Below are positions 4,204-48,987 of a stretch of 64,000 nt of DNA, piece after piece. Below the pieces are notes generated by a model. The model was not told the origin of the DNA. It saw nothing but the letters and a program-made list of their open reading frames with translations, and searched no databases. Made by a program: the position numbers and the translations under genes. Position 1 is the first letter of the stretch, and every line of letters starts with the position of its first letter. Source of the stretch: Pseudaquabacterium pictum (GTDB lineage: Bacteria; Pseudomonadota; Gammaproteobacteria; Burkholderiales; Burkholderiaceae_C); the NCBI RefSeq assembly GCF_005403045.1, contig NZ_BJCL01000022.1, positions 1 to 64,000 of the forward strand. Direction: 5' to 3'.

Positions 4204-7200
4204 ATGGCCTCGAACATCACCAGCCTGACCCCTGCCGAAATCGCCGCGATGACCACGGCCCAGATTGCCGCGCTCACTGCCGCCGACTGGGCAGCGTTCA
4301 GCGTGGACCAGATGGCGGCACTGACGGCCGAGCAGTTGCCGGTCATTCCAGCGCAGCGGGTCAGCGCGCTGACCGGTGTGCAGATCGCAGCCCTGGATCC
4401 AGCGGACTTCGCGGCGCTGAGCTCGACACAGCTGCGCGCCATCAGCACCGCGGGCGTCGCGGTGATGACCAGCAGCGACTTCGATGCGCTCAACACCCAG
4501 CAGCTCAATGCACTGACGACGGCCCAGGTGCGGGCCATCGTCACCGCCGAGCTGGCCGGCCTGTCGGCGCAGACGGTGTCGGCCCTCGGCACCGCCCAGG
4601 TGGCGGCGCTGAGCACGCAGCAGATCGACAACCTGAGCCAGAGCCAGCTGCAGGCGCTGACCACGGCCCAGGTGCGGGCGCTGAACACCCAGCAGGTGGC
4701 CAGCCTGTCCACCGAGGACCTGACCGCGCTGTCGCAGGACCAGTTCGCCGCCTTCACCAGCCGGCAGATGACCATGCTCAGCGGCGCCCAGGTGGCGGCG
4801 CTGGATGCCAGCTACCTGGCCCAGCTGAACACCCAGCAGCTGCGCAGCCTGAGCACCGCTGCCGTGGCAGCCATGGCCGACGTGGACTTCGAGGGCTTCA
4901 GCGCCGCCCAGCTGGCCGCGCTGAGCACGGCCCAGGTGCGCGCCATCGGTGCCGGCGTGCTGACCGAGGTGGCCGCTGCCACCGTGGCCCAGCTCAGTGC
5001 CGTCCAGATGGCGGCCCTGTCCACCGACCAGATGGCCGCGCTGTCGACCGAGCAGCTCACCGCGCTGGGCAATGGCCAGCTGGCCGCACTGGCCAGCCAC
5101 CAGCTGACCGCGCTGGACACCGCCGTCCTCAACAGCCTGAGCAGCGCCCAGTTCCAGGCGCTCAGCAGCAGGCAGATCGGCAGCCTGTCGAACAACCAGC
5201 TCAGCAACCTCGAGTCCGAGGATCTGCAGGCGCTGACCGAGACGCAGGTGCGCGGCATCACCACCGCCGGCCTGGCCGCGCTGGACAGCGCCGACATCGG
5301 CCTGCTCACGCCCACCCAGCTGGCCGCACTGACCACCACCCAGCTGCGCGCGCTGGAAGCGGCCGACATGGCCTACCTGGCCACGGCGGCGCTGCAGGCG
5401 CTGAGCAGCGCCCAGGTCACCGCGCTCACCACCGCCCAGCTCGCCGGCCTGTCCAGCGAGCAATGGCAGGCCCTGGGCGCCACCCAGCTGCGCGGGCTGA
5501 GCACCGCCCAGATCGCCAGCCTGGCCACCGACGACCTGAACACCCTGACCAGCGCGCAGTTCCAGCTGCTGGGCAGCGCCCAGATCACCGCGCTGACCAG
5601 CCAGCAGATCGCCAACCTGGAGTCCGACGACCTGGGCGCGCTGAGCGCGGCGCAGCTGCGCGGCCTGGAGACGCGTGACATCGCGGTGCTCGACAGCGCC
5701 GACGTGGCTGCCATGGGCTCGAACCAGCTGGCCGCACTGAGCTCGCTGCAGCTGCGCGCCCTGGCCACCGACGCCCTGGCCGGCCTGAGCACGGCCACCG
5801 TGGCCAGCCTGGGCACGGCCCAGATCGGCCAGCTCACCACCGCCCAGCTGGCGGCGCTGGGCTCCGACCAGTTCCTGGCCCTGACCAGCCGGCAGCTGCA
5901 GGCCCTGGGCTCGGCCCAGCTGGCCGCACTGTCGACCGAGGAGCTCAACAGCCTGAGCACCGACCAGTTCGCCGCACTGACCAGCAGCCAGCTGGCCGGC
6001 CTCACCAGCACCCAGGTGGCCAGCCTGGAGGCGGCCGACTTCGGCGCCCTGTCGACCACCCAGCTGCGCGGCATCGCCCCGGCCAGCCTGGCCGCGCTCA
6101 GCACCGAGCTGCTGTCGCAGCTGAGCTCGGCCGACGTGGCATCGCTGACCAGCGCGCAGATCGCCGCGCTGGACTCGGCCGACCTGGCCGCCCTGGGCCA
6201 GAACGCCGTGGCCGCCCTCGGCGGCACCCAGGTGGCCAACCTGAGCACCGCCCAGCTGGCGGCGCTGAGCAGCGACCAGCTGCAGGCCATGAGCACCGCC
6301 CAGGTGGCGGCGCTGACCTCGGCGCAGATTGCCTCGCTGTCGACCGCCGACCTGAACGCCCTGTCCACCGCCCAGTTCGCGGCACTGACCACCCGCCAGA
6401 TTGCCGAGCTGAGCGCCAACCAGGTGGCCAACCTGGAGAGCGCCGACCTGGCCGCGCTGGGCACGGCCCAGGTGCGCGCGCTGGAGACCCGCGACCTCGC
6501 GGCCATGGATTCGGCCGACATCCGCGTGCTCAGCAGCACGCAGGTGATGGCACTGACCTCGGCCCAGATCCGCGCGCTGGAGACGGCCGACCTGGTCGGC
6601 CTGACGCCGACCACCCTGGCCACCCTGGGCACGGCCCAGGTGGCGGCGCTGACCTCGGCGCAGATCAACGCCCTGGGCAGCGACCAGCTGCAGGCGTTGA
6701 CCACCGCCCAGCTGCGTGCCCTCAGCGGCGAGCAGCTGGCCAGCCTGACCAGCGACGACCTGAACACCCTGTCGGCCGAGCAGCTGGGCGCGCTGAGCAC
6801 CAGCCGCCTGGCCGCGCTGACCACCAGCCAGCTCAACGCCATGGGTTCGGACGACCTGCTGGCGCTGACCACCGCCCAGGTGCGGGGCCTGACCACCGGC
6901 CAGCTGGCGGCGCTGGACACCGCGGTGCTGAACGTGCTGAACACGGCGCAGTTCGCCGCGCTCAGCAGCACCCAGATCTCGGCGCTGCAGCCCAACCAGG
7001 TGGCCAACCTGGAATCCGCCGATCTGGCGGCGCTGAGCACCGGCCAGCTGCGCGGCCTGGGCGCCAACGCCGTGGCCGCGATGGGCGCGGACGACCTGGC
7101 CGTGCTGAGCACGGCGCAGCTGCGTTCGCTGACCAGCACCCAGCTGCGGGCCATCGACACCGCCGAGATCGTCGGCATCACCACCACGGCGCTGGCGGCG

Positions 7201-10200
7201 CTGAGCTCGGCCCAGCTGGGCCTGCTCAACACCCACCAGCTGGCCGGCCTGACCGATGCCCAGCTGCAGGCGCTGAGCTCGGGCCAGCTGCGTGGCCTGA
7301 CCACGGCACAGCTGGCGTCGCTGGACACCGCGAACCTCAACGCGCTGACCACCGACCAGATCCGCGCGCTCAGCAGCACCCAGATCGCCGCCCTGACCAG
7401 CCACCAGCTGGACAACTTGGCCAGCGACGACCTGATGGCGCTGACCACCGCGCAGCTGCGCGGCATCGAGGCGCGCGACCTCGGCGCGCTGGACGCGACC
7501 GACCTGGGCCGCCTGACCTCCACCCAGGTGGCAGCCTTCACCAGCGTGCAGCTGCGCGCCCTCGACAGCGCCGACCTCGGCGGCCTGGGCACCGCCGGCC
7601 TGGCCGCGCTCAGCGGCGCCCAGCTGGGCGCGCTGACCAATGCCCAGCTGGCCGCGCTGGGCACCGACCAGCTGCAGTCGCTGACCAGCAGCCAGATCAC
7701 CGGGCTGACCACCGCCCAGCTGGCATCGCTGGCCACCGACATCCTCAACAGCCTCACGCCCGATCAGTTCCGCGCCTTCACCAGCGCCCAGATCGGCTCG
7801 TTGACCGCCACCCAGATCGGTGCGCTGGAATCGGCCGACCTGAACGCGCTGAACACCGCCCAGTTCAAGGCCATCGGCGCGGCGGCCGTGGCGGGCTTCA
7901 ACAGCGCCGACCTGGCCGCCCTGACCTCGTCGCAGCTGTCGGTGCTGACCACCGCCCAGGTGCGCCAGATCGCCACCGCCGAGATCGACGGCCTCACCTC
8001 CACCGCGGTGCAGGGCCTGACCACGGCCCAGGTGGCCGCGCTCAGCACGCCGCAGCTCGCCGCGCTGACCAGCGAGCAGCTGCAGGCCTTCACCTCGGGG
8101 CAGATCCGTGCACTCACCGCCGGCCAGATCGCCGGCCTGGCCACCGACGACCTGAACGCGCTGACCAGCAGCCAGTTCCAGGCCCTGAGCACCCAGCAGA
8201 TCGCTGCCCTGGCCACCGAGCACGTGGCCAACCTCGAGACCGAGGACCTGGCGGCCCTGACCACGCTGCAGATGCGCGCCCTGGAGACCCGCGACATCGC
8301 GGCCATGGGCTCGGAGGACATCGCCGCCCTGCGCGCCGCGCAGATCGGCGCCCTGACCTCGAACCAGATCAAGGCCATCGGCACCGATGACCTGGCCGGC
8401 CTGAGCACCGCGGTGCTGTCGACGATGAGCTCGGCACAGATCGGCATGTTCACCTCGTCCCAGCTGGCCGCCCTGTCGTCGGACCAGCTGCAGTCGCTGA
8501 GCAGCCGCCAGCTGGCCGGCCTGACGACGGCACAGCTGTCGACCATGGGCTCGGACGACATCCGCAGCCTCACCACCGAGCAGTTCCAGTCGCTGTCCAC
8601 CGCCCGCCTGGCCGCGCTGACGTCGGCCCAGCTCGACAGCCTCGGCAGCGACCAGCTGCAGCTGCTGACCTCCACCCAGCTGCGCGGCCTGACCACGCTG
8701 CAGCTGAGCACGCTGAACACCGACGACCTGAACGCGCTGACCAGCGCCCAGTTCCGACTGCTCACCTCCAGCCAGATCGCGGCGCTGGGCAGCGACCAGA
8801 TCGGCAACCTGACCAGCGAGGACCTGGCAGCGCTGACCAGCGCCCAGATCCGCGCCATCCAGGTCACCGACCTGGCCGGCCTGGACTCCGCCGACCTGCG
8901 CGCCCTGCAGGCCGGCCAGATGTCCGGTTTCACCACCGCCCAGCTGCGGGCCCTGGGCTCGGACGACGTGGTCGGCCTGACCAGCGATGCGCTGCGCGCA
9001 CTGAACGCCAGCCAGATGGGTGCGTTCACCAGCAGCCAGCTCGGCGCGCTCAGCAGCGACCAGCTGCAATCGCTGACCAGCGTGCAGCTGCGCGGCCTGA
9101 CCAGCACCCAGCTGGCGGCGCTGGACACCGATGACCTGAACATGCTGACCGGCGACCAGCTGGCCAGCCTGGCGACCAGCCAGATCGCGGCGCTGAGCGC
9201 CAACCAGATCGGCAAGCTCACCACCGAGGACCTGGCCGCGCTGACGACGGCACAGATCCGCGCCATCGAGACGCGTGACCTTGCCAACATCGATTCCACC
9301 GACATGGCGGCGATGAGCGCCGCCCAGGTGGCCGCGCTGTCCAGCACCCAGCTGCGGGCGCTGGACACCACCGACATCGGTGGCATCAGCACCGCCGGCA
9401 TCGCCGCGCTCAGCGGCGGCCAGGTGGCTGCGCTGACCACCGCCCAGGTGCTGGCGCTGTCCACCGACCAGGTGCAGGCCCTGGGCACCGCCCAGCTGCG
9501 TGAACTGACCACCGCCCAGATGGCGGCGCTGGGCACCGACGACCTAGTGGCCCTGACGACCAACCAGCTGGCCGGCTTCACCACGGCGCAGATCGCCGCC
9601 CTGTCGGCCGGCCAGATCGCCAACTTCTCCACCGACGACCTGGCCGCCCTGTCGGCAGCCCAGGTGCGGGCCATCGACACCCGCGGCGTCGCCACCTTCG
9701 ACACCGCCGACCTCGGCGCCCTCACCTCGGCCCAGCTGGGTGCACTGACCTCGGTGCAGCTGGCGGCCATCGGCACCGACACCATCGACGGCCTGTCCAC
9801 CGCGGCCCTGGCGGGCCTGACCGTCGGCCAGGTGGCCGGCCTCACCTCGGGCCAGCTCAGCGCCCTATCCAGCGACCAGCTGCAGGCCCTGAGCAGCACC
9901 CAGCTGCGCGCCCTGGCCAGCAGCCAGCTCGCCGGCCTGGCCACCGATGCCCTGAACCACCTCACCACCAACCAGTTCGCCGCGCTCACCACCCAGCAGG
10001 TGGCCGGCCTGACCAGCACCCAGGTGGGCGGCCTGAACACCGACGACCTGTCGGTGCTGAGCACGGCGCAGCTGCGTGCGCTGGACACCCGCGCCCTGGC
10101 CCTGCTCGACACCGCCGACATGGCGGCCCTGAACTCGGCCCAGCTGGCCGCGCTGACCACCGACCAGCTGCGTGCCATCGGCACCGACGACCTGCCCGGC

Positions 10201-13200
10201 CTGGGCAGTTCCGCGCTGGCCGGCCTGTCCAGCACCCAGATCGCGGCGCTGACCACGGCCCAGCTGGGCAACCTGGGCAGCGATGACCTGCAGGCGCTCA
10301 GCGGCAACCAGCTGCGCGGCCTGACCTCGACCCAGATCGCCAGCCTGGCGACCGACGACCTCAATGCCCTGACGAGCAACCAGATCGCTGCACTGACGAC
10401 GGCGCAGATCGCCGCGCTGGGCACCGAGCAGCTGCGTGCCATGGCCTCCGACGACCTGGCCGCGCTGACCACGCTGCAGGTGCGGGCGCTGGAAAGCCGC
10501 GACCTGGCGCAGCTCGACTCCACCGACCTGGCGGTGCTGAACTCGGCCCAGCTCGGTGCGCTGACCAGCGTGCAGCTGGCCGGTCTGGCCACCGACGCGG
10601 TGGCCGGCCTGGCCACCGATGCCATCCCCGGCATCAACGCGCTGCAGATCGCCGGCCTGACCTCCAGGCAGCTGGCCAACCTGGGCAGCGACCAGCTGCA
10701 GGCCCTGGGCAGCGCCCAGCTGGCCGGCCTGACGACCGCCCAGGTGGCCAGCCTGGCCACCGATGACCTCAATGCGCTGACCAGCGACCAGTTCCGGGCG
10801 CTGACCACGGCGCAGATCGCCGCGCTCGACAGCAACCAGCTGGGCAAGCTGGGGAGCGAGGACCTGGGCGCCCTGACCTCGCTGCAGATCCGCGCCATGG
10901 AGACCCGCGACTTCGCCGGCTTCGACAGCGCCGACCTGCGCGCCCTGGGCTCGGCCCAGCTGGTGGCCTTCACCACCGACCAGCTGCGGGCCCTGGCGTC
11001 CGACGACCTGGTGGGCCTGACCACCGAGGCGCTGAACGCCCTGTCGGCGGCCCAGCTGGCCGTGCTGGGCAGCACCCAGCTCGGCGCCCTGTCCAGCGAC
11101 ACCCTGCAGGCCCTGGGCAGCGAGGAGCTGCGCAGCCTGACGACCACCCAGATCGCCGCCCTGTCCACCGACGACCTGAACACGCTGACCAGCGACCAGT
11201 TCAAGATGCTGCTGACCGCGCAGATCGCCGCGCTGACCAGCAACCAGATCGCCGGCCTGGTGTCGGACGACCTGGCCGCCCTCACCTCGGCCCAGATCCG
11301 CGCCATCGAGACGCGCAACCTGGGTGCGCTGGACAGCGTCGACCTGGGTCACCTGACCTCGCTGCAGATGGCGGCGATGACCACGGCCCAGCTGCGCGCG
11401 CTCGACAGCGCCGACCTGCCCGGCCTGACCACCGACGCCCTCAATGGGTTGGGCACGGTGCAGATCGGCGCGCTGGGCACCGCCCAGCTGGCGGCGCTGG
11501 GCAGCGAGCAGTGGGGGAGTCTGTCCACCCGCCTGCTGCAAGGCCTGACCACCGACCAGATGGGCCGGCTGACCAGCGACGACATCAACGCGCTGACCAC
11601 CGACCAGCTGCGCGCCTTCACCACCGCCCAGATCGCCGCGCTGAGCACGCAGCAGGTGGCCAACCTGGCCTCCGACGACGTGGCCGCGCTGACCTCGGTG
11701 CAGCTGCGTGCGATGGAAACCCGCGACGTGGCCGCGCTCGACTCGGTCGACCTGGCCGCGCTCAGCAGCGTCCAGGTGGCTGCCTTCACCAGCAACCAGC
11801 TGCAGGCCCTGGAGACGGTGGACCTCGCAGCCCTCACCACCGACGGCCTGGCCGGCATCAGCGCGGCCAACATCAGCGCGCTGAGCACCCGCCAGCTCGG
11901 CGCCATCGGCACCGAGCAGTGGCAGTCGCTGAGCAGCACCCAGCTGCGCGGCCTGTCCACCGACCAGGTGGCCGGCATGGCCACCGATGACCTGGCCAAC
12001 CTCACCAGCAGCCAGCTGTCCAGCCTGACCAACGCCCAGTGGGGCGCGCTGAACACCGCGCGCATCGCCGCGCTGGGCAGCGAGGACATCGCCGCGCTGA
12101 CCACCGGCCAGCTGCGCAGCCTGAGCACCGCCCAGATCGCCGCCCTCGACTCGGTCGACGTGGCCGCCCTGAGCGCCACCCAGGTCGCTGCGCTGGGCAC
12201 CGAGCAGCTGCAGGGCCTGGAAACGCAGGACCTGCTGGCCATGGGCACACAGTCCCTGGCCGCCATCACCACCGCCAGCATCGACGGCCTGACCTCGCGC
12301 CAGATCGGCGCGCTGAGCTCCGACCAGCTGCAGGCGCTGACCACCGTCCAGCTGCGTGCCCTGACCACCGCCCAGCTCACCGGCCTGGCCTCCGAGGACA
12401 TCGGCGCACTCACCAGCAACCAGCTGGCCGCGCTGCAGACCGAGCAGCTGGCCAGCCTGAGCACCCGCCAGATCGCCGCCATGGGCAGCGAGGACGTGGC
12501 TGCGCTGTCGACGGCCCAGCTGCGCAACCTGACCACGGCCCAGATCCGCGCGCTGGACACCGAGGACATGGTCATCATGGACAGCCGCCAGGTGGCTGCC
12601 CTCAGCTCCGACCAGCTGGCCGCGCTGGAGACGGTGGACCTGGTGGCCATCACCACCGCGGGCATCGCCGCGATCACCACCGCCAACATCGGCGTGTTCG
12701 ACACCCGGCAGATCGCCGCGCTGGCCAGTGACCAGCTGCAGGCCCTGACCACGGCCCAGATCCGCGCCCTGGCCCCCAGCCAGCTGGCCGGCCTGGCCAC
12801 CGACGACCTGAATGGCCTGTCCAGCACCCAGATCAAGGCGCTGAGCACCGAGCAGCTGGTGGCGCTGACCACCAAGCAGATCAGCGCCCTGGAGAGCGAG
12901 GACCTCGGCGCCCTGGGCACCGAGCAGATCCGCGTGCTGACCACCGCCCAGGTCGTGGCGCTGGACAGCGCCGACTTCGCGGTGATGACCTCGCGCCAGG
13001 TGGCCTCGTTCGATGCCGACCAGCTGCGGGCCATCGAGACGGCCGACCTGGCCGCGCTGAGCACCGCCGCCCTGGGCACGGTGTTCGCTGCCGCCATCAA
13101 TGGCTTCTCCACCGGCCAGCTGGCCGCGCTGAGCAGCGAGCAATGGTCGTCGCTGAGCACCGAGCAGCTGACCGCGCTGACCACCCACCAGGTGGCCAAC

Positions 13201-16200: not shown

Positions 16201-19200
16201 ATGGAGACGCGCGACATCGCCGCCCTGGACAGCCTGGACATCCAGGCCCTGAGCAGCGGCCAGATCACCGCGCTGACCAGCACCCAGCTGCGCGCCATCG
16301 AGAGCGCCGACTTCGCCGCGGTCAGCACGCAGGCCCTGGCGGCCCTCTCGGCCGGCAACGTGGCGGCCCTGGGCAGCCGGCAGCTCGCCGCCCTGGCGAG
16401 CGAGCAGTGGACCGCCCTGACCACCGACCAGGTGCGCGGCCTGACCACCGCCCAGCTGGCCAGCCTGGCCAGTGAAGACCTGAATGCGCTGACCTCCGAC
16501 CAGTTCGTGGCACTCACCACCGAGCAGATGTCCGCGCTGACCACCGCCCAGGTGTCCATGCTGGAGAGCGTGGACCTGGCCGCACTGACGCCCGCCCAGC
16601 TGGCCGCGCTGACCACCCGCGGCATCTTCGCCCTCGACACGGCCGACATGCCTGCGATCACCTCCGCGCAGATGGCCCTGCTGAGCACGGCCCAGATCCG
16701 TGCCATCGAGACGGCCGACCTGGTCAGGATCGGCACCGAGGCGCTGATGGGCCTGACGACCCAGCAGGTGGCCGCCCTGGCCACGCAGCAGCTCGCCGCG
16801 ATGGCCTCGGAACAGCTGCAGGTGCTGAGCACCGCCCAGCTGGCCGGCCTGAGCACCACCCAGCTGGCCAGCCTGTCCACCGACGACCTGAACCAGTTCA
16901 CCGCCGAGCAGTTCGCGGGCCTGAGCACGGCACAGATCGCCGGCCTGACGACGCTGCAGTTCGCCAACCTGGCCAGCGATGACCTGCAGGCCCTGGACAC
17001 CCAACAGATCCGCGCCATCGAGACCCGCGATCTGGCGGCCCTGGACTCGGCCGACCTGGCCAAGCTCAGCGCCGACCAGCTGGCCGCACTGAGCACGACC
17101 CAGGTGCGCGCCATCGAGAGCGAGGACATCAAGGGCATCCTGGCCAGCGCCATCGGCAGCCTCAGCGCCGCCCAGGTGGCCGCGCTCACCTCGGTGCAGC
17201 TGGGCGCCATGGGCACCGACCAGCTCGGCAGCCTGACCGAGATCCAGGTGGCCGGCATGGGCACCGCCCAGCTTGCCGCGCTGGACACCGACGACCTGAA
17301 CGCGCTGACCCAGACCCAGATGTCCTGGCTCAGCACCGCCCAGGTGGCCGGCCTGACCACGCTGCAGTTCAACAAGATGGACACCGCCGACCTGGCCGGC
17401 TTCAGCACGGCGCAGATCCGGGCCATCGAGACCCGCGACATCGCCGCGCTGGAGAGCAGCCACCTGGCCGCGCTGGACGGCAGCCAGGTGGCCGCGCTGA
17501 GCACCGACCAGGTGCGCGCCATCGAGACGGCCGACATCGACAACCTCACCGTCAGCAGCCTGGGCAGCCTGAGCTCCGGCCAGCTGGGTGCACTGTCCAC
17601 GGCCCAGCTGGCGGCCCTGGGCAGCGAGCAGCTCCAGGCCTTCAGCCAATCCCAGCTGGCAGGCCTGAGCACGGCCCAGCTGTCCAGCCTGGCATCGGAC
17701 GACCTGAACGCCTTCAAGGCCGACCAGTTCAGCGGCTTCAGCACGGCCCAGATCGCCGGGCTGACCAGCAGCCAGGTCAGCACGATGGAGTCGGCCGACC
17801 TGCTGGCGCTGAGCGCCAACCAGGTGGCGGCACTGCAGACCCGCGCCATCGCCGGCCTGGACACCGCCGACGCCGCCGCGCTGAACGCCAACTTCATCAG
17901 CGCCATGACCACCGCCCAGGTGCGGTCGATGGAGACGGCCGACGTGGCCGCGCTGAGCGCGGCTGCCGTGGGCGGCTTCAGCTCGGCGCAGATCCGCGCG
18001 CTCAGCGATGAGCAGCTGGCCGCGCTGGGCAGCGAGCAGCTGCAGCGCCTGACCGGCGACCAGCTGGCCGGCCTGAGCACGGCCCAGATCGCCGGGCTGC
18101 AGACGGAGGACCTGAACATGCTGCTCGCCAGCCAGTTCAGCAACCTGTCGACGGCCCAGATCGCCGCGCTGGAGACGGCCCAGGTGGTCAAGCTGGAGAG
18201 CACGGACGTGCAGGCGCTCAGCGAGCGTCAGGTGGCGGCCCTGTCGACCGCCAACATCGCGGCGATGGATTCCAGCGACATCGGCTACTTCACCGCGACC
18301 CAGATCGCCGCGCTGACGACCGCCCAGGTGCGGGCCATCGACACGGCCGACCTCGGCGTGCTGACCGGCGGCACCCTGGGGGCGCTGACATCGGCCCAGA
18401 TTGCCGCGCTGAGCACTGAACAGCTTGGTGCCCTGGGCAGCGACCAGCTGCGCGCCCTCAGCGCCGACCAGCTGTCGGGTCTGACCACGGCGCAGATGCG
18501 CAGCCTGGTCAGCGAAGACCTGAACGCGCTGCAGGCCGCCCAGATCCAGAACCTGAGCACCCGCCAGATTGCCGCGCTCGCCAGCGAGCAGGTGATGAAG
18601 ATGGAGAGCACGGACCTGCAGGCGCTGAGCGCCGCCCAGGTGCGCGCCCTGGCCACCGACGCCATCGTGGGCCTGAGCTCGGAAGACCTGGGCCTGCTGT
18701 CGGCCGACCAGATCTCCGGCCTGGGCACCAACCAGCTCCGTGCCATCGAGACCGCCGACATCGGCGGCATCTCCCTGGCTGCGCTGACCGGGCTGACCTC
18801 GCTGCAGATCGGCGCGCTGAGCTCCGAGCAGGTGGGCGCACTGGGCTCCGAGCAGCTGATGGCCCTGAACGACGTGCAGATGCGCGGCCTCACCGCGGCG
18901 CAGCTGTCGGCCATCGCCAGCGCGGACCTCAACGCCTTCACCGCCGCGCAGTTCCGCAGCTTCAGCACCGCGCAGATGGCCGGCCTGAGCAGCGAACAGA
19001 TCGGCAACCTGGAGACCGACGACCTGGCCGCGCTGACCACCGCACAGATCCGTGCGCTGGGCACCGAGGACATGGTGGTCCTGGACAGCGCCGACTTCGG
19101 TGCCATGGGTGCCGAGCAGTTGGGCGCCCTGACCGATGCCCAGGTGCAGGCCATCGAGACCGACGACCTGAACGCCCTGTCGGCGACCGACTTCAACGAG

Positions 19201-21819
19201 TTCGGCACCGCGCAGATCCGCGCGCTCAGCCAGAGCCAGATCGATGGCCTGGCCACCGACACGCTGGCGGCGATGAGCGGCACCCTGGTGTCCGGCCTCA
19301 GCGCCACCCAGATCGGCTGGCTGGACAGCGTCGACCTGGGCCAGCTCAGCGGCGAGCAACTGGGCGCGATGAGCAGCACGCAGCTGCGCGCCATCGAGAC
19401 GGCAGACATCACCGGCCTGACGGTGGCAGCCCTGGGCGGCCTGACCGCGGCCCAGGTGGCGACGCTGACGACCGAGCAGCTGGCAGCGCTGTCGTCCGAC
19501 CAGCTGCAGGGCCTGAGCGACACCCAGATCGCCGGCCTGACGATCGCCCAGCTGAACTCGCTGAGCAGCGACGATCTCAACACCCTGGTGGCCAGCCAGC
19601 TGCAGGGCCTGACCACGCGGCAGATCGCCGCGCTGGGCACCGACCAGCTGCTGAACCTGGCCAGCAACGACCTGCAGGCCCTCACCGGCACGCAGATCGC
19701 TGCGCTGACCACGGCCCAGGTGGCCGCCCTGGGCACCGAGGAGCTGTTCCTGCTCACCGGCGACCAGCTGGCCAGCCTGACCACCAACCAGATCCGGGCC
19801 ATCGAGATCGGCGACATCGACGACATCGGAGTCGCCGCCCTGGGCAGCCTCACAGCCGCGCAGATGGCTGCGCTGACCAATGCCCAGCTGGCCGCACTGA
19901 CCAGCGAGCAGCTGCAGTCCTTCACCGACCAGCAGCTGGCCGGCCTCAGCACCACCCAGCTGGCGGCCCTGGCCACCGACGACCTGAACCTGCTCACCGC
20001 CACGCAGTTCCAGGCGTTGGGCACGGCACAGATCGCCGGCCTGCTGAACAACCAGGTGGCCAATCTGGAGACCGACGACCTCGGCGCGCTGACCGTCAAC
20101 CAGATGGCGGCCCTGCGCACCGGCCAGATCGCTGCGCTGGACAGCGCCGACCTGGTGGTGTTCAACGGCGAGCAGCTGGCGGCGCTGTCGACCGCCCAGG
20201 TGCGGGCCATCGAGACGGCCGACATCGGCGGCATCAGCGCCGGCGCCTTCGGTGCGCTGACCACCGCCCAGGTGGCTGCGCTGACCACGCCGCAGCTCGG
20301 TGCGCTGGGTTCCGAGCAACTGCAGGCCTTCACCAACGAGCAGCTGTCGGGCCTGAGCACCGCCCAGCTGGCCTCGCTGGCCACCGATGACCTGAACCAG
20401 TTCAGCGAGGACCAGTTCCGCGCCCTGTCGGCGGCCCAGATCACCGGGCTGACCAACAGCCAGGTGGCCAACCTGCAGGCCAGCGACCTGGCCGCGCTGA
20501 GCATCACCCAGGTGGCGGCACTGCGCACCGGCCAGCTGGCCGCCATGGATTCCGCCGACATCGCCACCCTCACCGGTGAGCAATTGGCGGTGCTGACCAG
20601 CGCCCAGCTGCGGGCCATCGAGACGGCGGACATCGGCGCCATCGGCCTCGATGCCCTGTCCAGCCTGAGCGCACTGCAGATCGGCATGCTCACCTCCAGC
20701 CAGCTGGGGGCGCTGTCGAGCGAGCAACTGCAGGCGCTGAGCGAGACCCAGCTGTCGGGCCTGAGCACGCTGCAGATCACGCAGCTGGCCACCGACGACC
20801 TGAACGCCTTCAGCGTGACGCAGTTCCAGCAGCTGAGCACGGCGCAGATCGCGGCGCTGACCACCAACCAGGCGGCCAACCTGCAGGCCGAGGACCTGAA
20901 CGGCCTCGGCGTGTCCCAGGTGCGGGCCTTCGGCACCGCGGCCATCGCCGCCTGGGGCACCGATGACCTGGCCGCCCTCACCGGCGACCAGCTCACCGGC
21001 ATGAGCGCCAGCCAGCGCCTGGCCATCGAGTCGGCCGACATCAAGGGCCTGAGCGAGGAGGCGCTGAGCTACCTCACCGCCGGCCAGGTGGGTGCGCTGA
21101 CCTCGCTGCAGATCGCCGGCCTGAGCGATGCGCAGCTGCAGTCGCTGTCGGAGAGCCAGATCGGCGGCCTGACCACGCTGCAGGTCTCCACCCTGGCCAG
21201 CGCCGACCTGCTGCTGTTGACCGACAGCCAGATCCAGGCCCTGAGCACAGTGCAGATCAATGCGCTGACCGTCACCCAGGTCGGCGCGCTGGACAGCACC
21301 GACATCGCCCTGCTGAGCAACAGCCAGCTGCGCGCCCTGGGCACCGACGACATCGCGATCCTGAGCGCCAACGACATCGCCGTGCTCAATGCCGAGCAGG
21401 TGGCCGCCCTGAGCACCATCCAGGTGCGGGCCATCGAATCGGCCGACATCGGTGCCCTGTCCGCCGGCGACCTGCAGGAGTTCACCGCCAGCCAGGTGAA
21501 GGCCTTCACCCAGCAGCAGATCAATGCCCTGGGCAGCGACGACCTGCAGGCCCTGACGGCCACGCAGTTCGCGGCGCTGACCACGCAGCAGATCCGCTGG
21601 CTGGAGACGGCCGACATCGCGGCGCTGACCAACGAGCAGATCTCGTCGCTGACCAACGCCCAGGCCGCAGCGCTGCTGACCAACCAGATCGTGGCGCTGA
21701 CCAACGACCACATCGCGGCGCTGCAGGTGAGCGCGATCCAGTCGATGTCGATGACCCAGGCACTGGCCTTCTCCACCGAAGACCAGGCGCTGATGAGCGG
21801 CGCGCAGCTCACGGCGTTC
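4204..21819 (+). repeat. Two-level coding tandem repeat: 24-bp unit inside 408-bp unit
   Basis: The DNA encoding residues 1-5872 repeats every 24 bp (8 residues) and, at a higher level, every 408 bp (17 octads). The super-unit reads by position: 1 TDDLNAL-type, 2 DQFxAL, 3 AQIAAL, 4 NQVANL, 5 SDDLAAL, 6 AQLRAL, 7 ETRDIAAL, 8 DSADLAAL, 9 TQLAAL, 10 QLRAI, 11 ETADLxGL, 12 TxALAxL, 13-14 AQVAAL, 15 SDQLQAL, 16 QLRGL, 17 AQIASL. By hand I find about 41 complete units, two shortened 7-octad units (near residues 850 and 1448), one 10-octad unit (ending near residue 4986), a 4-octad lead-in and a 9-octad end piece. Confidence 0.9.
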
Positions 21820-22518
21820 AATGCGCTGTCGCCGATCATCCTGGACCTGGACGGCAACGGGGTGAAGACCCTGTCGGCGGAGGAAGGCGTGCAGTTCGAC
21901 CTGGCGGCCACCGGCACCACCGGCCAGTACGGCTGGGTCGGCGAGGGCGACGGCCTGCTGGTGCGGGACATCAACCGCGACGGCAGCATCAACGACGGCA
22001 GCGAGCTGTTCGGCGTGGGCACCCGCCTCGCCAACGGCAACCGTGCCGGCCACGGCTACGCCGCCATGGCTGCGCTCGACAGCAACGGTGACGGCCAGCT
22101 GACCGCCGCCGACCAGGCCTTCGGCGAGCTGCAGGTGTGGGTGGACGGCAACCGCGACGGCTACACCGACGTCGGCGAACTGCGCGGCCTGATCGACCTG
22201 GGCATCAATGCGCTGAGCCTGGACCATGTCACGTCGGACCGCCTGGACAACGGCAATGCCGTGGCCCTGGTCGGCAGCTACACCACCGACGACGGCAACA
22301 CCCACGAGATGGCCGACGTGTGGTTCGCCAAGGCCCGCAGCGAGGCGCCGCCGCCTCAGATCACCGATCTGCTGGCCGACGCGCCAGACCACCTGACCGG
22401 CAGCGCCGATGGTGGCAGCAGCAGCGTGGTGCAGACCGCCAGCGTGACACCGGCCGTGGTCCACCACAAGCTCAACCCGTTCGAGGAAGAGCTGCTGAAG
22501 AACCAGCCGCTGATCTGA
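4204..22518 (+). CDS. Giant octad-repeat protein with C-terminal calcium-loop domain, probable type I secretion substrate
   Basis: 6104 residues with no signal peptide. Residues 1-5872 are 734 consecutive octads of the form [ST]-x-x-[QDE]-[LIVF]-x-x-[LIMF], for example TTAQIAAL or ESADLAAL, in uninterrupted 8-residue register from the first Met. Octads group mostly into 17-octad (136-residue) super-repeats. Residues 5873-6104 are non-repetitive and carry four EF-hand-like loops: DLDGNG at 5881, DINRDGSINDGSELFG at 5922, DSNGDG at 5959 and DGNRDG at 5981. This tail type is common at the ends of type I secreted proteins. The end, NPFEEELLKNQPLI, could be part of the secretion signal. Start: ATG after TTTGAGACC, without a strong SD. 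The gene is monocistronic, with a FliA-type promoter and a strong terminator. No family was recognised for the repeats; adhesin, filament coat or surface layer are guesses. Ser/Thr at octad positions 1-2 offers very many O-glycosylation sites. Confidence 0.9.
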   Translation: MASNITSLTPAEIAAMTTAQIAALTAADWAAFSVDQMAALTAEQLPVIPAQRVSALTGVQIAALDPADFAALSSTQLRAISTAGVAVMTSSDFDALNTQQLNALTTAQVRAIVTAELAGLSAQTVSALGTAQVAALSTQQIDNLSQSQLQALTTAQVRALNTQQVASLSTEDLTALSQDQFAAFTSRQMTMLSGAQVAALDASYLAQLNTQQLRSLSTAAVAAMADVDFEGFSAAQLAALSTAQVRAIGAGVLTEVAAATVAQLSAVQMAALSTDQMAALSTEQLTALGNGQLAALASHQLTALDTAVLNSLSSAQFQALSSRQIGSLSNNQLSNLESEDLQALTETQVRGITTAGLAALDSADIGLLTPTQLAALTTTQLRALEAADMAYLATAALQALSSAQVTALTTAQLAGLSSEQWQALGATQLRGLSTAQIASLATDDLNTLTSAQFQLLGSAQITALTSQQIANLESDDLGALSAAQLRGLETRDIAVLDSADVAAMGSNQLAALSSLQLRALATDALAGLSTATVASLGTAQIGQLTTAQLAALGSDQFLALTSRQLQALGSAQLAALSTEELNSLSTDQFAALTSSQLAGLTSTQVASLEAADFGALSTTQLRGIAPASLAALSTELLSQLSSADVASLTSAQIAALDSADLAALGQNAVAALGGTQVANLSTAQLAALSSDQLQAMSTAQVAALTSAQIASLSTADLNALSTAQFAALTTRQIAELSANQVANLESADLAALGTAQVRALETRDLAAMDSADIRVLSSTQVMALTSAQIRALETADLVGLTPTTLATLGTAQVAALTSAQINALGSDQLQALTTAQLRALSGEQLASLTSDDLNTLSAEQLGALSTSRLAALTTSQLNAMGSDDLLALTTAQVRGLTTGQLAALDTAVLNVLNTAQFAALSSTQISALQPNQVANLESADLAALSTGQLRGLGANAVAAMGADDLAVLSTAQLRSLTSTQLRAIDTAEIVGITTTALAALSSAQLGLLNTHQLAGLTDAQLQALSSGQLRGLTTAQLASLDTANLNALTTDQIRALSSTQIAALTSHQLDNLASDDLMALTTAQLRGIEARDLGALDATDLGRLTSTQVAAFTSVQLRALDSADLGGLGTAGLAALSGAQLGALTNAQLAALGTDQLQSLTSSQITGLTTAQLASLATDILNSLTPDQFRAFTSAQIGSLTATQIGALESADLNALNTAQFKAIGAAAVAGFNSADLAALTSSQLSVLTTAQVRQIATAEIDGLTSTAVQGLTTAQVAALSTPQLAALTSEQLQAFTSGQIRALTAGQIAGLATDDLNALTSSQFQALSTQQIAALATEHVANLETEDLAALTTLQMRALETRDIAAMGSEDIAALRAAQIGALTSNQIKAIGTDDLAGLSTAVLSTMSSAQIGMFTSSQLAALSSDQLQSLSSRQLAGLTTAQLSTMGSDDIRSLTTEQFQSLSTARLAALTSAQLDSLGSDQLQLLTSTQLRGLTTLQLSTLNTDDLNALTSAQFRLLTSSQIAALGSDQIGNLTSEDLAALTSAQIRAIQVTDLAGLDSADLRALQAGQMSGFTTAQLRALGSDDVVGLTSDALRALNASQMGAFTSSQLGALSSDQLQSLTSVQLRGLTSTQLAALDTDDLNMLTGDQLASLATSQIAALSANQIGKLTTEDLAALTTAQIRAIETRDLANIDSTDMAAMSAAQVAALSSTQLRALDTTDIGGISTAGIAALSGGQVAALTTAQVLALSTDQVQALGTAQLRELTTAQMAALGTDDLVALTTNQLAGFTTAQIAALSAGQIANFSTDDLAALSAAQVRAIDTRGVATFDTADLGALTSAQLGALTSVQLAAIGTDTIDGLSTAALAGLTVGQVAGLTSGQLSALSSDQLQALSSTQLRALASSQLAGLATDALNHLTTNQFAALTTQQVAGLTSTQVGGLNTDDLSVLSTAQLRALDTRALALLDTADMAALNSAQLAALTTDQLRAIGTDDLPGLGSSALAGLSSTQIAALTTAQLGNLGSDDLQALSGNQLRGLTSTQIASLATDDLNALTSNQIAALTTAQIAALGTEQLRAMASDDLAALTTLQVRALESRDLAQLDSTDLAVLNSAQLGALTSVQLAGLATDAVAGLATDAIPGINALQIAGLTSRQLANLGSDQLQALGSAQLAGLTTAQVASLATDDLNALTSDQFRALTTAQIAALDSNQLGKLGSEDLGALTSLQIRAMETRDFAGFDSADLRALGSAQLVAFTTDQLRALASDDLVGLTTEALNALSAAQLAVLGSTQLGALSSDTLQALGSEELRSLTTTQIAALSTDDLNTLTSDQFKMLLTAQIAALTSNQIAGLVSDDLAALTSAQIRAIETRNLGALDSVDLGHLTSLQMAAMTTAQLRALDSADLPGLTTDALNGLGTVQIGALGTAQLAALGSEQWGSLSTRLLQGLTTDQMGRLTSDDINALTTDQLRAFTTAQIAALSTQQVANLASDDVAALTSVQLRAMETRDVAALDSVDLAALSSVQVAAFTSNQLQALETVDLAALTTDGLAGISAANISALSTRQLGAIGTEQWQSLSSTQLRGLSTDQVAGMATDDLANLTSSQLSSLTNAQWGALNTARIAALGSEDIAALTTGQLRSLSTAQIAALDSVDVAALSATQVAALGTEQLQGLETQDLLAMGTQSLAAITTASIDGLTSRQIGALSSDQLQALTTVQLRALTTAQLTGLASEDIGALTSNQLAALQTEQLASLSTRQIAAMGSEDVAALSTAQLRNLTTAQIRALDTEDMVIMDSRQVAALSSDQLAALETVDLVAITTAGIAAITTANIGVFDTRQIAALASDQLQALTTAQIRALAPSQLAGLATDDLNGLSSTQIKALSTEQLVALTTKQISALESEDLGALGTEQIRVLTTAQVVALDSADFAVMTSRQVASFDADQLRAIETADLAALSTAALGTVFAAAINGFSTGQLAALSSEQWSSLSTEQLTALTTHQVANIATDDLTALTTTQIAALGTEQVIALTTRQWTALDSTDIAALETDQLRAMETRDLAALETADFVALSSLQIRALSTDQLMAIETQDLRALTTETLAAIASADMDGFSTNQLSNLASEQIEALTTRQLRGLSVAQLLGLGTDDIVALTSDQFTGLATDQLAGLGTRQIAAMGSEDVAALGTDQLRRLTTAQIVALDSADVLALTSTQVAAFGTDQLAALETQDLLAMTTDAMAGLESADIDGLTSRQLGALGTDQLQALTSGQLRALTTHQLTGLSTEDIGTLTSTQFASLMTEQLASLSTRQIAAMGSEDVGALGTDQLRRLTTAQIVALDSADVLALTSTQVAAFGTEQLAALETQDLLAMTTDAMVGLESADIDGLTSRQLGALGTDQLQALTSGQLRALTTHQLTGLSTEDIGTLTSSQFASLQTEQLASLSTRQIAAMGSEDVGALGTDQLRRLTTAQIAALDSADLVILDSRQVAALSSEQLAALETVDLIAISTNGIVALSSENVAALTTRQIGALASDQLQALTTAQIRALSTAQLAGLATDDLNGLSSTQIVSLSTEQLVSLTTKQISALESEDLGALSTEQIVVLTTAHIAALDSADFAVMSSKQVAALTASQLRAIETADLAAMTTAGLVTISASSINGFSTSQLSALGSDQWAALTTEQLQSLTTTQVANITTEDMVALTTTQLASLSTEQIVALTTRQFAALDSDDIASLGTEQVRAMETRDIAALDSVDLAALTTAQMAILSGDQLRAIETNDLAAVSTQAIAAMGLTAITALTSVQFAAMGSDQLQALTSDQLRALTTTQMATLGTEELNALTTSQINSLSNDQIVALTTRQWAALGSEDIAALGTDQLRAMETRDLAALDSADLAALNTTQVAVLSGDQLRALETEDLAAISTDAIAAIGLANLTSLSSTQLAAMASEQLRALTTDQIRGLTTAQIATLQTDDLGALTTDQLGALNAEQVVALTTAQVASLTSEDIASLGSEQLSWMETRDIAALDSLDIQALSSGQITALTSTQLRAIESADFAAVSTQALAALSAGNVAALGSRQLAALASEQWTALTTDQVRGLTTAQLASLASEDLNALTSDQFVALTTEQMSALTTAQVSMLESVDLAALTPAQLAALTTRGIFALDTADMPAITSAQMALLSTAQIRAIETADLVRIGTEALMGLTTQQVAALATQQLAAMASEQLQVLSTAQLAGLSTTQLASLSTDDLNQFTAEQFAGLSTAQIAGLTTLQFANLASDDLQALDTQQIRAIETRDLAALDSADLAKLSADQLAALSTTQVRAIESEDIKGILASAIGSLSAAQVAALTSVQLGAMGTDQLGSLTEIQVAGMGTAQLAALDTDDLNALTQTQMSWLSTAQVAGLTTLQFNKMDTADLAGFSTAQIRAIETRDIAALESSHLAALDGSQVAALSTDQVRAIETADIDNLTVSSLGSLSSGQLGALSTAQLAALGSEQLQAFSQSQLAGLSTAQLSSLASDDLNAFKADQFSGFSTAQIAGLTSSQVSTMESADLLALSANQVAALQTRAIAGLDTADAAALNANFISAMTTAQVRSMETADVAALSAAAVGGFSSAQIRALSDEQLAALGSEQLQRLTGDQLAGLSTAQIAGLQTEDLNMLLASQFSNLSTAQIAALETAQVVKLESTDVQALSERQVAALSTANIAAMDSSDIGYFTATQIAALTTAQVRAIDTADLGVLTGGTLGALTSAQIAALSTEQLGALGSDQLRALSADQLSGLTTAQMRSLVSEDLNALQAAQIQNLSTRQIAALASEQVMKMESTDLQALSAAQVRALATDAIVGLSSEDLGLLSADQISGLGTNQLRAIETADIGGISLAALTGLTSLQIGALSSEQVGALGSEQLMALNDVQMRGLTAAQLSAIASADLNAFTAAQFRSFSTAQMAGLSSEQIGNLETDDLAALTTAQIRALGTEDMVVLDSADFGAMGAEQLGALTDAQVQAIETDDLNALSATDFNEFGTAQIRALSQSQIDGLATDTLAAMSGTLVSGLSATQIGWLDSVDLGQLSGEQLGAMSSTQLRAIETADITGLTVAALGGLTAAQVATLTTEQLAALSSDQLQGLSDTQIAGLTIAQLNSLSSDDLNTLVASQLQGLTTRQIAALGTDQLLNLASNDLQALTGTQIAALTTAQVAALGTEELFLLTGDQLASLTTNQIRAIEIGDIDDIGVAALGSLTAAQMAALTNAQLAALTSEQLQSFTDQQLAGLSTTQLAALATDDLNLLTATQFQALGTAQIAGLLNNQVANLETDDLGALTVNQMAALRTGQIAALDSADLVVFNGEQLAALSTAQVRAIETADIGGISAGAFGALTTAQVAALTTPQLGALGSEQLQAFTNEQLSGLSTAQLASLATDDLNQFSEDQFRALSAAQITGLTNSQVANLQASDLAALSITQVAALRTGQLAAMDSADIATLTGEQLAVLTSAQLRAIETADIGAIGLDALSSLSALQIGMLTSSQLGALSSEQLQALSETQLSGLSTLQITQLATDDLNAFSVTQFQQLSTAQIAALTTNQAANLQAEDLNGLGVSQVRAFGTAAIAAWGTDDLAALTGDQLTGMSASQRLAIESADIKGLSEEALSYLTAGQVGALTSLQIAGLSDAQLQSLSESQIGGLTTLQVSTLASADLLLLTDSQIQALSTVQINALTVTQVGALDSTDIALLSNSQLRALGTDDIAILSANDIAVLNAEQVAALSTIQVRAIESADIGALSAGDLQEFTASQVKAFTQQQINALGSDDLQALTATQFAALTTQQIRWLETADIAALTNEQISSLTNAQAAALLTNQIVALTNDHIAALQVSAIQSMSMTQALAFSTEDQALMSGAQLTAFNALSPIILDLDGNGVKTLSAEEGVQFDLAATGTTGQYGWVGEGDGLLVRDINRDGSINDGSELFGVGTRLANGNRAGHGYAAMAALDSNGDGQLTAADQAFGELQVWVDGNRDGYTDVGELRGLIDLGINALSLDHVTSDRLDNGNAVALVGSYTTDDGNTHEMADVWFAKARSEAPPPQITDLLADAPDHLTGSADGGSSSVVQTASVTPAVVHHKLNPFEEELLKNQPLI
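13690..14505 (+). repeat. Nearly identical tandem 408-bp duplicate inside the giant gene
   Basis: Two neighbouring super-units (about 13690-14097 and 14098-14505) are almost base-for-base copies, with only scattered substitutions. The shared CAGCTGCGCCGCCTGACCAC starts at 13741, 14149 and again at 14557, exactly 408 bp apart each time. Most other super-units differ at many positions, so this pair looks like a recent unequal-crossover duplication. Confidence 0.85.
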
Positions 22519-22551
22519 CCGGCGCCGGCCACCGGCCGGTCCGACCCCACT

Positions 22552-22599
22552 GCCAGCCCCGGGCGGCGCCGAAAAGCGCCCCCCGGGGCTGGCTTCTTT
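22552..22599 (+). terminator. Rho-independent terminator after the giant repeat gene
   Basis: A perfect 12-bp stem (GCCAGCCCCGGG with CCCGGGGCTGGC) encloses an inner stem GGCGC/GCGCC with an A-rich loop. TTCTTT follows. It lies 34 bp past the stop and separates the giant gene from pseB. Confidence 0.85.
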
Positions 22600-22690
22600 G
22601 GCGATCCCGCCGGACCGGGCTGCGCCACAGTGGATGCATGCCGTCCGGCCCCGTGGCGGGCGGCCATCCATGCACAAGGCGGGTCAGCAC

Positions 22691-23701
22691 ATGCTCAACG
22701 GAAAATCTGTCCTCATCACCGGCGGCACCGGCTCCTTCGGCCGCCAGTTCGTCGGCACCCTGCTGCAGCGCTATCCCGGCGTGCGCCGGGTGGTGGTGTT
22801 CTCGCGCGACGAGCTCAAGCAGTTCGAGATGGCGCAGACCTACGGCGAGCGGGACTACCCGCAGATCCGCTACTTCATCGGCGACGTGCGCGACCCGCAG
22901 CGCCTGCTGCGCGCACTGGAGGGCATCGACGTGGTGGTGCATGCCGCGGCGCTGAAGCAGGTGCCGGCGGCCGAGTACAACCCGTTCGAGTGCATCAAGA
23001 CCAATGTGCTGGGTGCGCAGAACCTGATCGAGGCCTGCCTAGACGCCGGCGTCAAGCGGGTGGTGGCGCTGTCCACCGACAAGGCGGCCGCGCCGGTGAA
23101 CCTGTACGGTGCCACCAAGCTGTGCTCGGACAAACTGTTCGTGGCGGCCAACAACATCAAGGGCTCGCGCGACCTGCGCTTCTCGGTGGTGCGCTACGGC
23201 AACGTGATGGGCAGCCGCGGCTCGGTGATCCCGTTCTTCAAGGCGCGGCGCCAGACCGGCGTGCTGCCGATCACCGCACCCGAGATGACCCGCTTCAACA
23301 TCAGCCTGCACGAGGGCGTGGAGATGGTGCTGTGGGCCATCGAGCATGCCTGGGGCGGCGAGATCCTGGTGCCCAAGCTGCCCAGCTACCGCATCACCGA
23401 CGTGGCCGAGGCCGTGGCGCCCGGCTGCCGCCAGCAGGTGGTGGGCATCCGCCCCGGCGAGAAGATCCACGAGGAAATGATCACCGCCAGCGACAGCCCC
23501 AACACCGTGGACCTGGGCGACTACTACGCCATCCTGCCCAGCGGCGCCGACTACAGCCTGGACGACTACTGCGCCCGCCAGGGTGCACGCCGGGTGCGCC
23601 CGGGCTTCAGCTACGACAGCGGCAGCAACCCCGACTTCCTGACCGTGCCGCAACTGCGCGACCTGATCGCCACCCAGGTGGACGGCGTCGCCCAGCACTG
23701 A
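22691..23701 (+). CDS. pseB: UDP-N-acetylglucosamine 4,6-dehydratase (inverting), PseB family
   Basis: Catalyses C5-inverting 4,6-dehydration of UDP-GlcNAc, the first step to pseudaminic acid and related sugars used on flagellins. 336 residues, as expected for PseB. The N-terminal Rossmann motif TGGTGSFG is followed by the VVVFSRDELKQFEM segment typical of the family. STDKAA and the active-site YGATK (Y-x3-K) are present, as is RYGNVMGSRGSVIPFF. The ATG at 22691 was chosen because the conserved MLNGKSVLITGG begins there. First gene of a four-gene run (pseB, pseA-like, hisH, hisF). PseC, PseH, PseG, PseI and PseF are not in the window. Confidence 0.92.
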   Translation: MLNGKSVLITGGTGSFGRQFVGTLLQRYPGVRRVVVFSRDELKQFEMAQTYGERDYPQIRYFIGDVRDPQRLLRALEGIDVVVHAAALKQVPAAEYNPFECIKTNVLGAQNLIEACLDAGVKRVVALSTDKAAAPVNLYGATKLCSDKLFVAANNIKGSRDLRFSVVRYGNVMGSRGSVIPFFKARRQTGVLPITAPEMTRFNISLHEGVEMVLWAIEHAWGGEILVPKLPSYRITDVAEAVAPGCRQQVVGIRPGEKIHEEMITASDSPNTVDLGDYYAILPSGADYSLDDYCARQGARRVRPGFSYDSGSNPDFLTVPQLRDLIATQVDGVAQH

Positions 23702-43300: not shown

Positions 43301-43463
43301 GGGTCGGCGGTGGGGCAGGCAGTGCAGCACCAAGTAGACGCTGACGCCCCCAACCGCGATCCCTGGAAAGTCGGCCGGTTTTGCCGGCTATTCAGGCAGT
43401 CAGCCTGCAGCCGGCCGAGCGCCGGGCCGCTCCCAAGCCGGCCGGCCCACCCGCCCGGCGGGT

Positions 43464-48881: not shown

Positions 48882-48987
48882 GCGGGCTCCAGGGCACGGC
48901 ACAGGTGGCCTTCATCGTAGGAGCGGGGGCCCCGCGCGATCGCCTGGAAAAGGCCGGCCGCGGCCCGCCTTATCCCGGCCCGGAATG

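Follow-up and report, generated by a model that had tools for sequence, protein, structure and literature searches.

A giant octad-repeat protein of Pseudaquabacterium pictum, predicted as a superhelix of mini-helices, and a nearby type I secretion and glycosyltransferase operon

The giant open reading frame and its octad array

A stretch of 64,000 nucleotides of Pseudaquabacterium pictum (contig NZ_BJCL01000022.1; hereafter the window) was analysed for the gene of a giant ALTTAQ-repeat protein, which is located at positions 4204..22518 of the plus strand. The open reading frame (ORF) starts with ATG and encodes 6104 amino acids without any internal stop codon, and no frameshift was seen in the assembled sequence, in agreement with the unbroken frame of the initial annotation. 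The deduced protein has a computed mass of 622 kDa and an isoelectric point of 4.05, and contains no Cys. It consists of 734 octads (4204..21819, plus strand; residues 1-5872), a C-terminal domain and a tail, and is considered below together with an operon for a type I secretion system (T1SS) in the same window. Genomes and loci used for comparison are designated by G-numbers and L-numbers, respectively.

The 734 unbroken octads that had been described from the first Met were recovered in a single 8-residue register starting at Met1, and are arranged in a super-unit of 17 octads (408 nt) present as 43 copies plus three octads. Positions 5 (LIVFMW) and 8 (LIMFVW), noted earlier as hydrophobic, are both so in 728 of the 734 octads; the remaining six all deviate at position 5, and the register slips nowhere. 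With Ala permitted at position 5, the longest unbroken run reached 700 octads, whereas none of 200 residue shuffles gave a run above 6. The strict pattern [ST]xx[QDE][LIVF]xx[LIMF], which had been said to hold throughout, was overstated and fits only 347 octads, 100 shuffles giving a mean of 1.96 and no more than 6. Position by position, Ser or Thr occurs at position 1 in 424 octads, Gln, Asp or Glu at position 4 in 645, LIVF at position 5 in 688 and LIMF at position 8 in 729, and 684 octads carry Ser or Thr at position 1 or 2. The 136-residue super-unit is supported by an octad identity of 0.518 at a lag of 17, compared with 0.332 +/- 0.005 after shuffling, with further peaks at multiples of that lag; super-units share 40% identity on average and 52% between neighbours, and the most similar pair reaches 87%. 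In the N-terminal octads (4204..4299, plus strand), the start and the octad of Trp29 are placed alike in relatives; the 24 N-terminal relatives were selected by a pattern that itself demands Met at the start and Trp within octad four, and the invariance of these two residues is therefore uninformative.

Divergence was estimated against a relative of the same genus (G006), the alignment of which covers 982 residues of the C-terminal part only and has no internal gaps. The ratio of nonsynonymous to synonymous substitution rates (dN/dS) was 0.33 over 982 codons and 0.34 over the 750 octad codons, and on this comparison the giant gene looks to be under selection. Amino acid divergence at octad positions 1-8 was 0.18, 0.15, 0.34, 0.01, 0.09, 0.23, 0.13 and 0.06, respectively, and in this alignment the strongest constraint is at positions 4, 8 and 5. 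Comparable open frames of 4137-6705 codons with the same C-terminal domain were found in six other genomes of the genus. The repetitive, GC-rich DNA and the long antisense ORFs could be taken as signs of an assembly artefact or a low-complexity non-gene, a reading that is scarcely credible against the divergence of the super-units, the dN/dS of 0.33 and the frames of the six further genomes.

An antisense ORF of 4270 amino acids (9865-22677, minus strand) and other long minus-strand ORFs overlie the giant gene. The sense frame contains CTA twice and TTA and TCA never, and this codon use keeps a codon-aligned antisense frame open. In several Aquabacterium relatives, the octad register slips at roughly similar places (around residue 1163 in L097, 1148 in L098, 1040 in L102 and 961 in L099), whereas the window protein has no slip. 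Two to five consecutive ALTTAQ ORFs stand in tandem at L061, L062, L064, L069, L070, L077, L078, L079 and L094.

The octad repeat was assigned to Pfam PF20080 (ALTTAQ_rpt; model of 38 residues, curated cut-off of 26.4 bits), which scored 645.5 (residues 1-1000), 756.8 and 270.9 bits on three stretches of the giant protein, all exceeding the cut-off. Across the whole genome 148 matches were obtained, every one in the giant ORF (150 of 274 first-look candidates scored), and among 398 genomes of the phylum PF20080 was matched in 28, in 25 of them over the cut-off. Other Pfam families exceeded their own cut-offs on summed repeats, namely CAAP1 (72.5), LRR_EndoS (42.9), Phage_TAC_7 (31.6) and EF-hand_11 (30.9); these matches, far below the PF20080 scores, and weak leucine-rich repeat (LRR) hits were taken as repeat noise or composition. 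The best sequence match in the PDB was 9zem HeliScrew4 (E 2e-14, 109 residues aligned), a solved chain with octads of the same pattern, which differs in its length of 120 residues and in a frequent Pro at position 2 of the alignment; over 17,690 octads surveyed here, position 2 is Ser or Thr in 77.7% and Pro in 1.2%. The initial annotation had recognised no named family in the octad and had proposed a hidden Markov model search, with a strong match to a described repeat family as the evidence against novelty. The known family PF20080 covers the octads, and the novelty of the repeat is thereby refuted by that criterion. The ALTTAQ repeat is already known by name, which implies no function, and the searches made here brought up nothing for it on a 17-octad super-unit, a superhelical turn or partner genes. 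No paper was found in the open-access literature searched for ALTTAQ, HeliScrew or TTAQIAAL, nor was any open-access paper found on octapeptide-repeat superhelical solenoids or on giant bacterial proteins with eight-residue repeats.

Predicted fold and superhelical turn

The N-terminal 320 residues (40 octads) and the C-terminal 392 residues (20 octads and the end of the protein) were modelled by AlphaFold from alignments of 24 and 32 rows of natural relatives, and gave predicted local distance difference test (pLDDT) values of 95.0 and 85.5, respectively; residues 41-160 of the C-terminal model ranged from 86 to 97 per ten-residue block. In both models, helix occupies octad positions 2-6 or 2-7 in nearly every octad with a break at positions 8-1, which places position 1 at the N-cap and position 4 at N3 of a capping box. 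The earlier suggestions that S-x-x-[QDE] is a helix capping box and that the octads form a superhelix of very short helices both agree with these models, on which the giant is very probably a superhelix of mini-helices with one helix of 5-6 residues per octad. No strand was present in the octads of either model, and the beta-solenoid that had been offered as the alternative was rejected accordingly. A leucine-rich repeat was also rejected, with no modelled strand per octad despite weak LRR hits by phmmer. Two alignments of internal repeats (A1 and A2; 624 and 816 columns for 408 amino acids, respectively) came out gappy.

The best Foldseek match of the octad model was to mesothelin, a right-handed solenoid of short helices, with an E of 1.6e-4 but template modelling (TM) scores of only 0.25-0.35 among the best eight matches; HeliScrew4 was not among the Foldseek matches obtained. 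In the available text of PMC10035497, mesothelin is described as stacking its 24 short helices into nine layers, some repeats being of two helices and others of three.

The superhelical turn was read from sequence periodicity. In the window protein, acidic position 4 (Asp) had a spectral power of 112 at 17/5 = 3.40 octads, the next harmonic being 24, and the same peak was obtained for acidic position 1, Arg at position 6 and acidic position 3; no 3.40 peak was found for Ile or Leu at position 8 or for Gly at position 7. The Asp period was surveyed over 44 blocks of at least 60 octads from the window and 29 other loci, 30 selected sources in all, and the peak was at 3.38-3.43 octads in 26 of them, with significance at 1/200 or better by permutation in 24 of the 26.

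Repeat lags were surveyed over 88 octad blocks (17,690 octads), from which blocks below 60 octads, blocks of unlike composition and overlaps were excluded and in which close relatives such as L069 and L070 were retained. The best lag was 17 (25 blocks), 34 (15), 24 (10), 10 (9), 27 (8), 7 (4), 51 (3) or another value (14), and these lags fit a period of 3.40-3.43 octads. The mean cosine at 3.4 was 0.90 over the 88 blocks. With the blocks that peak at multiples of 17 set aside, the other 45 averaged 0.80; the 14 different lags of these 45 gave 0.60, matched by 0.0001 of random sets, and had their own optimum at 3.43. Lag profiles averaged over each of the two subsets (blocks of at least 124 octads) fitted best at 3.40 and 3.41 (r of 0.69 and 0.62, respectively). 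Size covariation in the window protein, after removal of the 17-octad mean, was highest at lags 3 and 4 (2.18 and 1.86; others 1.45-1.81), and over 31 blocks of 17-octad period including the window these lags reached 3.90 and 3.49 (others 2.3-3.1).

Several results weigh against a common turn of this size. The Asp peak was elsewhere in 18 of the 44 blocks (2.0-2.1, 2.4 or 5.5-5.8 octads), and at 2.4 octads in all six blocks from four Pseudomonas loci; single strong negative covariation terms occurred at lags 8 and 9; period 2 was dominant in most octad blocks of family f65; and helix lengths in the AlphaFold models had no 3.4 periodicity (peak at 4.4 with a power of 4.5, below the permutation value of 5.7). 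On balance, about 3.4 octads (27 residues) per superhelical turn is the likely value as judged from these periodicities, by which five turns would be closed by 17 octads and would bear an acidic stripe. The 734 octads would then make about 216 turns and, at a layer thickness of some 1 nm, would extend to roughly 0.2 micrometre. If the rule holds that the duplication unit equals whole turns, the geometry of the fold would be readable from the sequence.

The C-terminal domain and the secretion operon

The octads are followed by a calcium domain like the self-processing module (SPM) of FrpC (21829..22329, plus strand), as read from alignment and model. Residues 5877-6042 align with the FrpC SPM (E 1.9e-39), and the C-terminal model matched the FrpC module (PDB 6sjw and 6sjx) by Foldseek with an E of 2.3e-16, 48% identity and a TM of 0.81 by target. 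Fold and Ca2+ sites are alike; the domain here comes after the octads, and it has Ser-Pro (Ser5876-Pro5877) where FrpC has Asp-Pro. By alignment with the calcium loops and the cleaved Asp414 as described in the available text of PMC7078468, all four EF-hand-like sites are kept, at residues 5880-5886, 5916-5934, 5959-5970 and 5981-5992, the first loop having Asn for one of its Asp residues, and Asp414 corresponds to Ser5876. An active FrpC-like module, with self-cleavage and covalent attachment of the giant to a partner, would fit the sequence identity, the TM score and the four kept Ca sites. It is very unlikely in view of the cleaved Asp being Ser here and of the residues at this position in 46 SPM-type sequences, which were Ser in 23, Thr in 22, Ala in one and Asp in none (the table includes the window and four octad-less sequences, namely L095 twice, L096 and L105). 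Among octad-less homologues outside that table, L040 has Asp and L043 has Lys at the cleavage position. No RTX nonapeptide (GGxGxDxUx) was matched in the giant protein, and an RTX array was rejected.

The C-terminal tail (22339..22515, plus strand) consists of acidic residues and then PLI, and was modelled as a short helix with low confidence (pLDDT 40-67). An acidic end and a PLI-like finish are common to many relatives in the alignment, and on its sequence the tail is a probable T1SS signal.

All three T1SS components, namely outer-membrane factor (OMF), membrane fusion protein (MFP) and ATP-binding cassette (ABC) protein, are encoded in the window, 19 kb downstream of the giant gene. They stand in an operon-like row of the minus strand (41.9-48.9 kb) that comprises a gene for a tetratricopeptide repeat (TPR) and glycosyltransferase family 41 (GT41) protein (47091..48902; no other GT41 gene was found in the genome), a permease/ATPase gene (44722..47037; TIGR03375, LssB type, over cut-off), a periplasmic adaptor gene (43495..44712; TIGR01843 over cut-off) and a gene for a TolC-type outer-membrane channel (41915..43333; PF02321, with TIGR01844 below cut-off). 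The GT41 gene lies immediately upstream of the ATPase gene on the same strand. A second HlyD-type adaptor over cut-off, the only further one in the genome, is on contig C8 beside a different SPM-containing ORF. This second SPM-type ORF (G000:C8:268000-280889, L105) is open over 2208 amino acids, has no octads, carries Thr-Pro, and is adjoined by its own T1SS adaptor and ATPase genes.

Linkage was surveyed in 21 genomes of the genus including its own, with the SPM domain as the marker in place of PF20080, which was itself not sought. The SPM domain was present in 19 genomes and the T1SS adaptor in 20; G014 had no match for SPM, adaptor or GT41, and G017 had adaptor and GT41 without an SPM match. 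The SPM gene and the adaptor gene were within 26 kb in nine of the 19 genomes and 76 kb apart on the same contig in one, and octads were seen at eight of the nine close pairs, the contig of the ninth (G005) beginning at the SPM domain. In 19 of the 20 genomes with an adaptor, a GT41 gene was located no more than 4 kb from it (the adaptor of G013 being a distant one, with 38% identity); the sole exception was G006, where the adaptor is at a contig end. From these data, T1SS export of the giant is likely.

Giant T1SS adhesins of the LapA and SiiE types resemble the giant in size, T1SS and calcium; SiiE, as described, differs in being built of Ig-like domains, and the LapA type differs in its protease LapG. 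A LapG-type protease (PF06035) was not found in this genome, and release of the LapA type was rejected. The octads could, as in large T1SS adhesins, be a plain structural spacer that holds the end domain off the cell and has no role for sugars, with which growth in repeat number, the T1SS and the C-terminal calcium domain are compatible. This explanation is unlikely: the octads begin at Met1, so that there is no separate N-terminal domain, PF06035 is not found, and the GT41 linkage described below is left unexplained.

GT41 linkage and the proposed surface superhelix

ALTTAQ loci were collected (79 taken, 75 non-redundant with 597 kb of flank, 66 with at least 2.5 kb of total flank), and GT41 was scored as linked within 8 kb of an ALTTAQ gene. 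Among the 66 flanked loci, 23 had GT41, 20 had T1SS parts, 32 had either and 11 had both; the GT41-linked loci include Pseudomonas, Geobacteraceae, Accumulibacter, Aquabacterium and others, GT41 frequently being the adjacent gene. The genus has about 39 GT41 genes in 111 Mb, a density at which 597 kb should contain about 0.2. The GT41 ORF begins about 85-110 bp past the last ALTTAQ codon at L086 (Pseudomonas guryensis), L087 (Accumulibacter), G425, G405 and L083 (Geobacter), L086 additionally carrying OMF, MFP and ABC genes, and all nine ALTTAQ-adjacent GT41 proteins tested by Pfam had TPR and GT41. In family f65, ALTTAQ and GT41 genes were on one contig within about 11 kb in seven of the 16 genomes that have both (G093, G100, G104, G132, G136, G163 and G195) among the matches listed, and about 24 kb apart in G175. 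Among the 398 genomes, GT41 was present in 19 of 28 with PF20080 versus 114 of 370 without, 16 of the 19 belonging to one family.

In a tree of 59 GT41 domains, the window enzyme fell in a clade of 21 members (support 100/99). Of these, 20 had gone into the tree as linked sequences, 13 for a neighbouring ALTTAQ gene and seven, the window enzyme among them, for the T1SS operon of the genus; the remaining one (L186), entered as a control, proved to be about 14 kb from an ALTTAQ ORF. Two more clades held seven linked rows each, and linked L137 stood alone on a long branch. The linkage label required five changes on the tree, against a mean of 19.0 for shuffled labels, and none of 500 shuffles was as low.

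Three side observations concern these families. At L075 (4477-7698; Thiobaca trueperi), a GT41-TPR protein has an N-terminal C39-like peptidase domain and is a possible fusion of glycosyltransferase and T1SS-type parts. The f65 loci (L129-L134, L136 and L140-L147) include several ALTTAQ ORFs per genome in some cases (G163, G124 and G175). Octads of f65 alternate in pairs in most blocks, and GT41-containing frames of 1260-3781 codons were found on the ALTTAQ contig in seven genomes.

The giant gene lies among flagellar genes, with FlhA and FlhB upstream of it; flhB (2725..3870, minus strand) is its divergent neighbour and adjoins the ALTTAQ gene in other Aquabacterium too. The next gene downstream encodes PseB, a UDP-GlcNAc 4,6-dehydratase (inverting) (22598..23701, plus strand), which begins 79 bp past the giant gene by its longest-ORF start. 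The T1SS-GT41 row is followed by genes for CheZ, MotB, MotA, FlhC, flagellin and FliD. Caulobacter FlmG, in the available text of PMC7591256, combines TPR with a GT-B domain and acts on flagellins in the cytoplasm as their glycosyltransferase. It is likened to the window GT41 by domain layout, by action before export, which is proposed for the latter, and by the flagellar and pseudaminate genes near the latter, and differs in that its substrate is flagellin. The GT41 of the window might thus be an FlmG-like flagellin glycosyltransferase using pseudaminic acid, and the giant an unmodified T1SS adhesin merely within a flagellar island. The flagellar genes and PseB of the window, as well as flagellin and FliK genes upstream of the ALTTAQ-GT41 pair at L087, are compatible with this explanation. 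It is the main rival to the explanation preferred below and is rated as rather unlikely, since GT41 of the window's clade directly follows the ALTTAQ gene at L086, in G425 and at L085 (a Geobacteraceae metagenome-assembled genome), eight flagellar queries (FlhA, FlhB, FliC, FliD, MotA, MotB, FlhC and CheZ) were unmatched over 19-20 kb on each side in G425, and the window GT41 gene directly precedes the T1SS ATPase gene on its strand. The flanks of G405 were likewise without a flagellar match, its GT41 belonging to another lineage.

In the region between the giant gene and the T1SS operon, ACP synthase III, MaoC and SDR domains (26439-33300, plus strand) mark an acyl-chain pathway within the flagellar and sugar island, and a PF02522 gene (aminoglycoside 3-N-acetyltransferase family; 36622-37407, minus strand) adjoins AMP-binding and glycosyltransferase genes and probably encodes a sugar acyltransferase rather than a resistance function.

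The explanation preferred here is that the giant is a GT41-glycosylated, T1SS-exported surface superhelix, which we infer with fair but limited confidence. The placement of GT41 beside the exporter and the Ser/Thr-rich octads suggest dense O-glycosylation before export, as in FlmG, and on the gene linkage a modification of the giant by GT41 is reasonably likely. Ser or Thr was retained between the window and G006 at 52 of 57 sites of position 1, 42 of 46 of position 2, 13 of 21 of position 3, 8 of 10 of position 6 and 8 of 11 of position 7.

Against this explanation stand the following points. The Ser and Thr of positions 1-2 may serve helix capping, and their conservation is therefore no proof of modification. 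The giant gene and the T1SS-GT41 operon are separated by 19 kb with sugar and lipid genes between them, and from its place in a flagellar region with PseB the GT41 could serve flagellin. Within the flank examined, no GT41 was found at 43 of the 66 loci and no T1SS gene at 46. In nine of the 19 genus genomes the SPM gene and the adaptor were on separate contigs, and the contigs of G003 and G004 rule out such linkage within about 70 kb. Linked GT41s are spread over more than one clade, and the contrast with the shuffled labels is inflated by near-copies.

In the proposed mechanism, the octads would fold as capped helices of 5-6 residues and then wind into one continuous superhelix. The cytoplasmic TPR-GT41 of the neighbouring operon would O-glycosylate octad Ser and Thr, and the T1SS of that operon would export the chain with the C-terminus leading. 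The FrpC-like domain would fold on reaching external calcium and, with Ser-Pro in place of Asp-Pro, is proposed to stay joined to the superhelix without cleavage. The end product would be a long, acidic, glycosylated surface rod or coat, for which an adhesive or coat role is suggested tentatively.

More broadly, and with slightly less than even expectation, the ALTTAQ giant, a lineage-matched TPR-GT41 and a T1SS may constitute a conserved cassette that makes a mucin-like surface polymer, with a rigid superhelix of 3.4 octads per turn, in-register O-glycosylation of hundreds of Ser and Thr before export, an inactivated FrpC cap and repeat growth by near-whole turns. No report of a GT41, T1SS and ALTTAQ cassette was found among the open-access papers listed. 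The T1SS operon and the TPR-GT41 of the window are new here, and no example of the whole architecture, in which a giant octad superhelix and a disarmed FrpC module are combined with a T1SS and a lineage-matched GT41, was encountered in the literature searched. If the linkage holds as proposed, PF20080 would be tied to a dedicated cytoplasmic glycosyltransferase and a T1SS, which would give the ALTTAQ giants their first testable role. The giant would be a possible prokaryotic substrate of GT41 enzymes (the OGT/SPINDLY family) and a natural solenoid with one mini-helix per repeat, hundreds of turns long.

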